From NCBI RefSeq assembly GCF_905235195.1, contig NZ_CAJOKH010000001.1, forward strand, positions 1-43,300: DNA of 43,300 nucleotides. Direction: 5' to 3'. Below the pieces are notes generated by a model, which worked only from the letters and a program-made list of their open reading frames with translations, was not told the DNA's origin and ran no database searches. A program made the position numbers and the translations under genes. Of this stretch, positions 22,366 to 34,316 are shown piece by piece. Positions within the stretch are counted from its first letter, which is position 1. Every line of letters starts with the position of its first letter. This stretch comes from an uncultured Methanobrevibacter sp. Its GTDB lineage: Archaea > Methanobacteriota > Methanobacteria > Methanobacteriales > Methanobacteriaceae.

Positions 22366-24300
22366 ATGGTTTTTGACAGTTATGAAAGGGAGACTCTACA
22401 AAAATTAGTTAGATCTTGTTTATTAGAGATAAATAGACTTAAAACTGATTTAGCTGCAGCAGAAAAACAACGAGTCAACTTAGAAAATGAGAAAATTCAA
22501 ATTCAACATGATGAAACTGTAAATGAATTACAGCTTAATTTAACTGATAAGGAAAATGAATTGTTAAAACTAAAAAGTGATTTTCAAGATGAAATCAATA
22601 ATCTTAAATCATCCATCAATGCAAAGGATGAAGAGATTAATATTAAAAATAAAATAATTCTTGATAATGAAAATCTTATCAGTAATCAAGATGAAAAAAT
22701 ACGTAAATTAAGTGAATTTGATAATAACATTAAATCAGTTAGAACAGCAATTGAAGCTGATATATCTTCTATTAAGTCTTCTCTTGAAGAAGTTTTAACT
22801 AATTTTCAACAAGGGGAAACTTTAAGTGATGAGAAAATTCAAGAAAAAACTGATATTATCAGTCAAAAGGACTCAGAAATCAAATCACTTTCAAAAAATA
22901 TTGAAGATTATAAAATCCAAATCATTAACCTACAAAACCAACTTGACTCTAAGGATAGTTTCATTGAACTTAAAGAGGAATTAACTAATACAAAACATGA
23001 ATTATCTCAAAAAAATGAAGAGCTTGATAGTTTAAAAGAAGATTCAGTTTCCAAATCTGAATATGATAAATTAACAGAACAATTAGAAGATTTAAGAGAA
23101 TTAATTAAATCTAAAGATTCAACTATTCAAGATTTACAAAAATCCAATGATAAACTGATTACTCTTCAAAATGATTTAGATTATGCAAATGAATTATTGT
23201 CTTCAAAAAGCCAGGAATTAAATATAATCAATGAAAATCGTGTATCATCTGAAGAATATTTAAAAATAAAAGCAGAATTAGACTCTACAAATAAAAAATT
23301 AGAATCTAAAGAAAATGAACTAGGGTCTTTACTTTTAAATTCAATTTCTAAAGAAAAATTTGATAATCTTCAAAAAGAATATGATGAATTTAAGAAAACT
23401 GCTGTGCCTAAAAAATCTTATGAGGAATTAGGCGAAGAATTAACCAAAATTCGTCAAGGTACTATAGATAAAGATTCCTATAATGAACTTAAAGATGAAT
23501 ATGAGAAATATAAATCTCAATCTGTTTCTAAAGAGGTTTATGATAATCTTAACGAAGAACTTGAAAGTTTAAAAGAATCATCTGTTTCTAAAGAGGATTA
23601 CACTAATTTGGAAATTGAACTTCAATATGTCAAAAACAATTCCATCTCCAAGGAAATGTATGACGATTTATTGAATGAATTAAATAAATATAAAGCAGGT
23701 TCTGATGAAGGTGAAACTTATGATGAACTTGTCAAGGAATTAAATTCTTTAAAATCCAATTCAATTTCTATTGAGGAATATAATAGACTTAAAAAAGAAA
23801 ACTCACTTAAAGATAAGAAAATTGATCGTTTGGAAAAAATTAAGGATTTATTTTCCGAACTTGAAGCTCAACATAATAACGATTTGAAAAACTTAGAACA
23901 ATTACAGTCTCAAATAAAGGATATTGAATCTGGTAATGTTAATGGTTCTTCAAATACAAATATTGAAAATGAGGATCTTAGAAAAGAACTTCAAGAGAAA
24001 GACGATAATATTAAGGAACTGGAAGAAATAAAAGATTTGTATCATAAATTGATTATTCCTCCTAAACCTGATTTGACTTCATTCCAATCTCAAGTATTTA
24101 ATTTAATTCCAGATGAACCTTTGACTTCCGCTGAAATCCATGAGTATATTAAAAATGTTGCTTTTGATAAGATTTCCATTGGAAGTATTGAGAATATCTT
24201 GAAAAAATTAATTAGAAAAGGATATGTTGAATCTCATGAAAAGGATGATAAAGTAGTTTACACTAAAGTTGCTGATAATAGTTCTAATGTAAATGAATAA
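22366..24300 (+). CDS. long coiled-coil protein with 20-residue repeats and a winged-helix-like C-terminus
   Basis: 644 residues, not assignable to a named family. The N-terminus (1-30, MVFDSYERETLQKLVRSCLLEINRLK) starts a heptad-rich coiled coil that runs to about 560. Within it, residues 327-480 are a regular 20-residue repeat with consensus (I/V)SKExYDxLxxELxxLKxxS, seven full copies plus a partial one. The C-terminal 75 residues (SFQSQVFNLIPDEPLTSAEIHEYIKN...ILKKLIRKGYVES) read like a winged helix with a beta wing, suggesting DNA or protein binding. There is no membrane segment or signal. It stands alone between asd and the tRNA pair. A structural or chromosome-organising role is a guess only. 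Confidence 0.85.
   Translation: MVFDSYERETLQKLVRSCLLEINRLKTDLAAAEKQRVNLENEKIQIQHDETVNELQLNLTDKENELLKLKSDFQDEINNLKSSINAKDEEINIKNKIILDNENLISNQDEKIRKLSEFDNNIKSVRTAIEADISSIKSSLEEVLTNFQQGETLSDEKIQEKTDIISQKDSEIKSLSKNIEDYKIQIINLQNQLDSKDSFIELKEELTNTKHELSQKNEELDSLKEDSVSKSEYDKLTEQLEDLRELIKSKDSTIQDLQKSNDKLITLQNDLDYANELLSSKSQELNIINENRVSSEEYLKIKAELDSTNKKLESKENELGSLLLNSISKEKFDNLQKEYDEFKKTAVPKKSYEELGEELTKIRQGTIDKDSYNELKDEYEKYKSQSVSKEVYDNLNEELESLKESSVSKEDYTNLEIELQYVKNNSISKEMYDDLLNELNKYKAGSDEGETYDELVKELNSLKSNSISIEEYNRLKKENSLKDKKIDRLEKIKDLFSELEAQHNNDLKNLEQLQSQIKDIESGNVNGSSNTNIENEDLRKELQEKDDNIKELEEIKDLYHKLIIPPKPDLTSFQSQVFNLIPDEPLTSAEIHEYIKNVAFDKISIGSIENILKKLIRKGYVESHEKDDKVVYTKVADNSSNVNE
23344..23763 (+). repeat. 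seven 60 bp in-frame repeats
   Basis: Each 60 bp unit encodes 20 residues with fixed positions: Ile/Val-Ser-Lys-Glu at 1-4, Tyr at 6, Leu at 9, Glu at 12-13, a Lys at 18, Ser at 20. Copies start at residues 327, 347, 367, 387, 407, 427 and 447, and a partial one at 467. Spacing is exact, although the DNA has diverged, so the protein period is under selection. Related but longer-spaced units start near residues 228 and 293. Confidence 0.8.
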
Positions 24301-25027: not shown

Positions 25028-25101
25028 TGCAGCCGCCGGGATTCGGACCCGGGTTGCTGGCTTGGAAGGCCAGAGTAATAACCAGACTATACCACGGCTG
25101 C
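25028..25101 (-). tRNA. tRNA-Gly (anticodon TCC)
   Basis: Full cloverleaf: 7 bp acceptor GCAGCCG/CGGCTGC, D arm GTATAGTCTGGTTATTAC, anticodon stem CTGGC/GCCAG with loop CTTCCAA (anticodon at 25064-25066), T arm CCGGG/CCCGG with loop TTCGAAT, discriminator A. No CCA is encoded and no intron is present. It is separated by 5 bp from tRNA-Gly(GCC) upstream, so the two are cotranscribed. Confidence 0.95.
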
Positions 25102-25106
25102 ATATA

Positions 25107-25180
25107 TGCGGCGTCCGGGATTTGAACCCGGGTCTCTAACGTGGCAGGCTAGAGTCTTAACCAGGCTGGACTAACACCGC
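25107..25180 (-). tRNA. tRNA-Gly (anticodon GCC)
   Basis: Cloverleaf with acceptor GCGGTGT/ACGCCGC (one G-T pair), anticodon stem CTAGC/GTTAG around loop CTGCCAC (anticodon at 25143-25145), T arm with loop TTCAAAT, and discriminator A. No CCA encoded, no intron. First gene of a two-tRNA transcript, both for glycine. Confidence 0.95.
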
Positions 25181-25866: not shown

Positions 25867-26142
25867 ATGATTGATTTTAGTATTTATGTTCCGTTTTTAG
25901 GACTTTTAATATTTGGTAATATTGAAAATTTAATCTTGGCTTCCCAAGGGGTAGTTGTAGGTGTGGATTCTAAGAAACTTGCTCTTTTCAGTATTATTGC
26001 AGTGTCCTGTTGGTTGATTATAGGTACTTTTGCTACATCTTTTGCAATTCAGTATGCGGATGTAATAGAGTTCATTGGTGGTTTGGCAATTGCTATTTTA
26101 GGTGTTCAGTCTATGCTAAAAGCAACTCATATTATACATTAA
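25867..26142 (+). CDS. half-size membrane protein A of a tandem pair, LysE/MntP-like
   Basis: 91 residues with three membrane helices: about 8-33 (FLGLLIFGNIENLILASQGVV), 38-62 and 68-85. The shared motifs with the next gene are IFGNIENL, SQGV, WL..GT, YAD.IEFIGG and LG.Q.ML. The final helix (EFIGGLAIAILGVQ) closely resembles the end of manganese exporter MntP and related LysE-superfamily carriers, which consist of two such 3-helix halves. Lysines lie in the loop after helix 1 (Lys36-Lys37) and at the C-terminus, which predicts N-outside topology. GGTGAG precedes the ATG. It is 20 bp before its paralogue, in an obvious operon. The transport substrate is unknown, and the family relation is by eye. 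Confidence 0.8.
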   Translation: MIDFSIYVPFLGLLIFGNIENLILASQGVVVGVDSKKLALFSIIAVSCWLIIGTFATSFAIQYADVIEFIGGLAIAILGVQSMLKATHIIH

Positions 26143-26162
26143 ATTTTTTAAGGGGTTAATTT

Positions 26163-26432
26163 ATGGGATTTGATGAATTTAAACCATTTTTACCATTAAT
26201 CATTTTTGGTAATATTGAAAATTTAGTACTTTCTTCTCAGGGAGTTATAGCAGGTGTAAATCCTCTAATTTTAGCTGGCTTATCTTTAATGTTTGTTATT
26301 TTTTGGCTATTATTAGGTACTTTAGGTACTAAAGTTGCTATTAAATATGCTGATTTAATTGAATTTATTGGTGGTTTTGCTATATTTGTTTTAGGTCTTC
26401 AAGCAATGCTAGGTGCTTTAGGCATTTTATAA
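26163..26432 (+). CDS. half-size membrane protein B of a tandem pair, LysE/MntP-like
   Basis: 89 residues, three helices, clearly paralogous to the gene before it (GNIENL.L.SQGV..GV and YAD.IEFIGG..I..LG.Q.ML shared). Its positive charges are Lys7 before helix 1 and Lys56 and Lys60 before helix 3, with none after helix 1 or at the C-terminus. By the positive-inside rule it should sit N-inside, opposite to its partner. Together the two could form an antiparallel heterodimer equal to one six-helix transporter. AAGGGG lies before the ATG. Not a pseudogene: both frames are intact and similarly conserved. Substrate unknown. Confidence 0.8.
   Translation: MGFDEFKPFLPLIIFGNIENLVLSSQGVIAGVNPLILAGLSLMFVIFWLLLGTLGTKVAIKYADLIEFIGGFAIFVLGLQAMLGALGIL

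Positions 26433-32098: not shown

Positions 32099-34316
<2,218 letters not shown>

Follow-up and report, generated by a model that had tools for sequence, protein, structure and literature searches.

The window, a stretch of 43,300 nucleotides of Methanobrevibacter DNA, holds two adjacent genes for small membrane proteins that resemble one another and carry their lysines in reciprocal positions, raising the question of whether they are separate proteins or two halves of one carrier that insert into the membrane in opposite directions. The two genes, here called A and B, and the gap between them are as follows.

25867..26142, + strand: ORF of protein A, 91 residues with three transmembrane (TM) helices, predicted N-out/C-in.
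26143..26162, + strand: A-B intergenic gap of 20 nt, purine-rich, with a ribosome-binding-site-like aaggggtt.
26163..26432, + strand: ORF of protein B, 89 residues with three TM helices, predicted N-in/C-out.

Both ORFs, their lengths and their shared motifs were present as the initial annotation had described them, and from the layout of the sequence the two genes look to be transcribed together. A and B are paralogous three-helix proteins with GNIENL and SQGV in common, and a third shared motif reads YADVIEFIGG in A and YADLIEFIGG in B. The lysines also lie where they had been noted: in A, GNIENL is in TM1 (with the invariant Glu20), K36 and K37 are in loop 1-2 and K84 is past TM3, and in B, GNIENL is again in TM1 (invariant Glu19) and the lysines are ahead of TM1 and, in loop 2-3, ahead of TM3 (GTKVAIKYAD). 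The helix positions in both window proteins, including the broken TM1 of A, were deduced from the model of an orthologous fusion (L034, see below). A second A-B pair, more distant in sequence, is on contig 44 of the same genome (L002/L110).

A scan of 84,980 species, which captures close peptide patterns only, identified 74 loci, every one of them in Methanobacteriaceae, with the relatives labelled Methanobrevibacter and Methanosphaera. By profile search the family was found in 104 of 139 Methanobacteriaceae genomes, corresponding to four of the 17 genera in Methanobacteriaceae and four of the 20 in the phylum, and copy numbers were mostly even among the genomes listed. The expectation that orthologs would occur as adjacent pairs with opposite charge bias held at all loci examined but two: B comes immediately after A in the same orientation, in most cases at a spacing of -8 to 22 nt. 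Of the two exceptions, L079 is at a contig end and L077 has an orphan B (L077:2989-3258) with a three-residue deletion in loop 2-3; the latter genome also has an intact pair (L042), and the orphan is possibly the result of decay of a second pair. GNIENL, including its glutamate, is invariant in 54/54 alignment rows. No Pfam family (54 members searched) or NCBIfam family reached cut-off for A or B, there was no PDB sequence match to either protein, and no viral relatives were found. Matches to SemiSWEET and SpoIIIAC were dismissed, being far under the cut-offs and not common across members.

The charge distribution of the two proteins is fully reciprocal. Counting K/R by side (N-terminus plus loop 2-3 vs. 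loop 1-2 plus C-terminus), the window proteins have 0 vs. 3 in A and 3 vs. 0 in B, and the same excess is found in 74/74 A orthologs (loop 1-2/C-terminus) and 73/73 B orthologs (N-terminus/loop 2-3), with no exception and no tie in either set. Among 67 non-redundant A sequences K/R columns are in loop 1-2 (90%) and just past TM3 (81%), with almost none elsewhere, and among 70 non-redundant B sequences they are ahead of TM1 (80%) and in or near loop 2-3, where three positions have 96, 99, and 81%, again with almost none outside these regions. By the positive-inside rule this reciprocal bias predicts that A is oriented N-out/C-in and B N-in/C-out. Adjacent homologous genes with a fixed and opposite K/R bias are the class feature of dual-topology heterodimer pairs, and A and B have it. 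In a tree, A and B separated cleanly into two clades (support 0.944), and the distance matrices of the two are correlated (mirror r 0.88). Within a locus the two proteins have an average identity of ~54%.

At locus L034, which lies on a 192-kb contig of one assembled genome (a MAG), a single in-frame ORF of 196 residues spans A and B, with the A stop codon and the B start codon both absent and a hydrophilic linker; both codons are present in the related L016. Three helices, an apparently helix-free linker and three more helices would place the two halves of this protein in the membrane in opposite orientations. We used the fusion as the single-chain query for AlphaFold2, with in-frame pairs as paired rows, and the resulting model, from a shallow alignment of 21 rows, had a pLDDT of 83 and a pTM of 0.75. 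It has three helices per half, with TM1 of both halves broken right before the N-I-E of GNIENL (A half: residues 2-17, 20-31, 36-60, and 62-86; B half: residues 113-121, 124-135, 140-164, and 166-195). The split antiparallel heterodimer that had been suggested for the window pair thus gains support from the pairing, the reciprocal charge, the natural fusion and the co-divergence. A Foldseek search with the L034 model gave no PDB or viral match at E<=0.001, the best matches being unrelated carriers with low TM-scores, and a model of MntP itself also had no PDB match at E<=0.001; a weak pointer from the MntP model to RnfA/NqrD was not significant.

We consider it probable that A and B form an obligate antiparallel heterodimer which is, in effect, a single MntP/LysE-type carrier with six helices in an inverted repeat, predicted to act on a cation or on a proton-coupled substrate. 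In our proposed mechanism, each protein would insert as three helices, A N-out/C-in and B N-in/C-out, and the two would assemble antiparallel into a small secondary carrier. The predicted break in TM1 at Gly-Asn, mid-membrane, would put E20 of A and E19 of B centrally with the likewise invariant Asn and Gln of TM1 beside them. These two acids, related by a pseudo-two-fold axis, may form a putative site at which a cation binds, or else protons whose movement drives that of another substrate, and the carrier would run an alternating-access cycle. That the acid is invariant and the membrane contains no conserved basic residue favors a cation or a proton-coupled substrate over a phosphate-bearing lipid.

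The initial annotation had likened the pair to the LysE superfamily, and to MntP in particular. For this comparison profiles were prepared for the A-B pairs, for MntP, LysE, and SMR proteins from within the phylum, and for bacterial MntP, CadD, and TerC. The concatenated A-B profile matched the MntP profile by hhalign with a probability of 85.6%, rising to 88.5% (E 2.7e-6) with a richer MntP profile. The alignment runs colinearly through about 130 columns, pairing A with the N half of MntP and B with the C half; TM1 of A contributes hardly anything to it. Controls against MntP were lower: 22% for the swapped order, 41% for A-A, 60% for B-B, and 0.1% for the reversed profile, and block shuffles of columns scored at most 28.9 vs. 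the observed 44.6. With random halves of the A-B set the match came to 77-90%. With shallow alignments (A2, A3) it fell to 29.9%, colinearity being kept, as against 79-88% with deep profiles, and it was 79% to archaeal MntP alone vs. 23% to bacterial MntP alone. The likeness stood at a moderate level for MntP, and other parts of the superfamily fell away: LysE proper was rejected as a relative at 7%, and so were CadD (0.2%) and TerC (0.1%), which gave about 0.1-0.6% with small profiles. For scale, MntP matched LysE at only 3-11% with the same profiles. None of 54 members matched PF02659 (MntP).

MntP and the A-B pair are alike in having 3+3 helices in halves that face opposite ways, a matching charge distribution in each half, an acidic residue in each half's first helix and a GG motif in the third. 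Mean K/R counts (N-terminus, loop 1-2, loop 2-3, C-terminus) are 0.1/2.3/0.3/2.3 for the N half of MntP, which is the A pattern, and 1.6/0.3/2.9/0.0 for the C half, which is the B pattern. The superfamily trait of two oppositely oriented 3-TM repeats is found in the A-B pair, not in one chain. In the AlphaFold2 model of Methanobrevibacter smithii MntP, TM4 is broken right before Ile-Asp117, and the helix limits relative to the acid (-13..-3, -1..+10, +16..+44, and +47..+64) resemble those of B in the L034 fusion (-12..-4, -1..+10, +15..+39, and +41..+70); TM1 of the N half is unbroken in that model, so the agreement in helix breaks covers one half only. The differences are that MntP is one gene and A-B two, that the acid is Asp in the [SA]xDA of TM1 and TM4 of MntP and Glu at the equivalent position in GNIENL, and that A and B are far more alike than the two halves of MntP. 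At the level of sequence we judge kinship of A-B to MntP-type carriers of the LysE superfamily to be likely but not proven.

The likeness could instead have arisen by convergence of two inverted three-helix units on a GG motif and loop lysines, an explanation we find somewhat doubtful. It would account for the fact that masking GG halves the match (to 44%), and the identity between A and B means that they cannot each derive directly from one half of MntP. Convergence does not sit well, however, with a match that stays at 63% after masking K/R, that is colinear and above all shuffles, nor with helix breaks that lie at a matching distance from the acid.

What the carrier might move has to be considered with its genomic surroundings. 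The pair is inside a surface-polysaccharide cluster at 46 of the 74 loci with flanks, comprising rml/CDP-glycerol clusters at 34 loci and other glycosyltransferase clusters at 12. The order in rml-type clusters is rmlA, rmlC, rmlB, a gap (median 222 nt), A, B, a CDP-glycerol glycerophosphotransferase gene (PF04464; median 6 nt from B to this next gene) and then GT2 glycosyltransferase genes, followed by a WbaP-type sugar-phosphate transferase gene (PF02397) where longer stretches were read. As the pair starts a rhamnose/CDP-glycerol-type operon in many Methanobrevibacter, it probably has a role in envelope glycan assembly there, and the glycan operons favor an envelope role, which might be exerted via the supply or removal of an ion or by moving an intermediate; candidate substrates would be a cation or an envelope-glycan intermediate. 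About 28 loci are outside glycan clusters (nine window-type, nine Methanosphaera-type, and ten other). The window-type neighborhood includes genes for a SAM methyltransferase, thermosome, HMG-CoA synthase, and thiolase, and with this non-glycan setting the window copy is stand-alone and not in a glycan operon. In the M. smithii surface-polymer cluster (L112:2659-5217) there are an ABC-2 exporter permease and ATPase besides A-B; the G035 cluster had no ABC-2 exporter in the stretch read.

A divalent-metal exporter, for Mn2+ or a similar ion, would make the pair a split MntP, which is consistent with its resemblance to MntP in profile, charges and helix break, Glu taking the place of the conserved Asp. 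No PF02659 MntP was found in the window's own genome, a negative that includes A and B, and the pair could substitute for it there. Glycosylation enzymes that depend on Mn, together with GDT1/TMEM165, would offer a reason for the glycan setting. We nevertheless hold a metal exporter to be rather less than an even prospect, because 113 of the phylum's 152 genomes, among them most of those with the pair, encode a full-length MntP, because no metal riboswitch (Rfam; yybP-ykoY Mn type) was found in the 11 loci scanned, and because the acidic motif is NIEN rather than the [SA]xDA of MntP. With so many pairs in glycan operons as well, the metal-ion substrate put forward by the initial annotation does not follow from the evidence.

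The operon context suggests a second substrate class, with A-B as a small antiparallel flippase for a lipid-linked glycan or polyprenyl-phosphate intermediate, similar to ArnE/ArnF or GAP. The pair heads a tight operon with the CDP-glycerol glycerophosphotransferase and glycosyltransferases, beside rmlABC(D) and the WbaP-type polyprenyl sugar-phosphate transferase; ArnE/ArnF, a paired small flippase encoded in a sugar-lipid operon, is a precedent (PMC9574504), and the LysE superfamily includes peptidoglycolipid transporters (PMC4608589). We think such a flippase unlikely, as each subunit has an invariant Glu in place of a conserved in-membrane positive residue for phosphate, the SMR profile match is 0.2-1.3%, the M. 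smithii cluster already has its ABC-2 exporter, and some copies, that of the window among them, do not lie in glycan clusters. The WbaP-type transferase, moreover, occurs in 123 of 139 genomes, some of them from genera where the pair is missing, so that gene co-occurrence gives no specific link. That A and B are not a transporter at all, and instead form separate parallel or homodimeric complexes or are small scaffold or regulatory membrane proteins, would suit their small size and the lack of a solved-fold match, but is highly improbable: the genes are strictly paired, diverge together and in one case are fused, the charges are fully reciprocal, and polar/acidic residues in mid-membrane are invariant.

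Returning to the antiparallel A-B carrier, three known systems invite comparison. The cyanobacterial members of UPF0016/GDT1 (PF01169; PMC7380456) have, as A-B does, adjacent 3-TM genes with opposite charge bias and two-domain fusions, and the adjacent pairs function only together (PMC4067407). In contrast to UPF0016/GDT1, the A-B family has no known singletons bar the one orphan B, and the motif E-phi-G-D-[KR]-[ST] is absent from A-B; kinship was rejected on this motif alone. PF01169 matched neither the A/B proteins nor anything in the phylum's 152 genomes, and a plasmid probe yielded no GDT1. The SMR heterodimers (ArnE/ArnF, MdtI/MdtJ, and EbrA/EbrB; PF00893) are likewise encoded by paired small genes and form antiparallel dimers, with a Glu in TM1 of most subtypes; however, they have four TM helices per ~110-residue subunit as opposed to three per half in A-B. 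By eye, the TM1 Glu and the spacing of Trp in TM2 made an EmrE-like relationship attractive, but it was rejected on the low profile match (about 0.5% for SMR alongside the LysE, CadD and TerC comparisons), and no A/B member matched PF00893. The GAP/peptidoglycolipid branch of the LysE superfamily (TC 2.A.116), compared by description, shares the 3+3 helices and has an envelope-glycolipid role, but its members are encoded by single genes (180-290 residues) rather than by two.

The initial annotation saw in the window pair a living version of the state that preceded fusion. Split pairs and one fusion do coexist in the family, but with ~54% identity between A and B and a restriction to four genera we interpret it as a 3-TM duplication that happened again, recently and independently, and not as an ancient relic. 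In the simplest history, a 3-TM ancestor, probably of dual topology, would have been duplicated recently, after which opposite orientations were fixed and the two genes fused once. A duplication route from a 3-TM precursor has likewise been proposed for LysE-superfamily carriers (PMC4608589) and was shown for UPF0016 (PMC4067407). We put forward, tentatively, that these are lineage-restricted split antiparallel carriers of LysE/MntP type, which arose by a recent 3-TM re-duplication, exist as both pairs and a fusion, and were recruited to glycopolymer operons. With similar reserve, we suggest that such a family may be previously undescribed and that a role in glycopolymer operons may not be known for MntP. 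The only paired/fused series described in the LysE fold class is that of UPF0016/GDT1 (PMC4067407), and A-B would add a second, from gut methanogens that can be cultured (M. smithii and M. stadtmanae among them), where the high identity of A and B would make duplication, topology fixation and fusion experimentally testable. The rhamnose/CDP-glycerol operons for surface polymers in methanogens of the rumen and the human gut would also gain, in A-B, a membrane component that lacks annotation.

Several other features were observed around the pairs. Upstream of A-B in the window are two neighboring tRNA genes on the - strand (25028-25101 and 25107-25180), and the same two-tRNA layout is near window-type pairs in L006, L007, L014, and L074. 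Positions 22366-24300 (+ strand) encode a 644-residue protein with long heptad-like coiled-coil repeats and no Pfam match. A gene for a transporter of the sodium:neurotransmitter-symporter family (PF00209; 26629-28119, - strand) adjoins A-B, as it does in L006 and L007, and the HMG-CoA synthase-like and thiolase genes at 32099-34316 (+ strand) have counterparts near the window-type pairs of seven further loci. Just downstream of a pair of the contig 44 type, at L022:3454-3603, there is an FMN riboswitch with a riboflavin gene (DHBP synthase).
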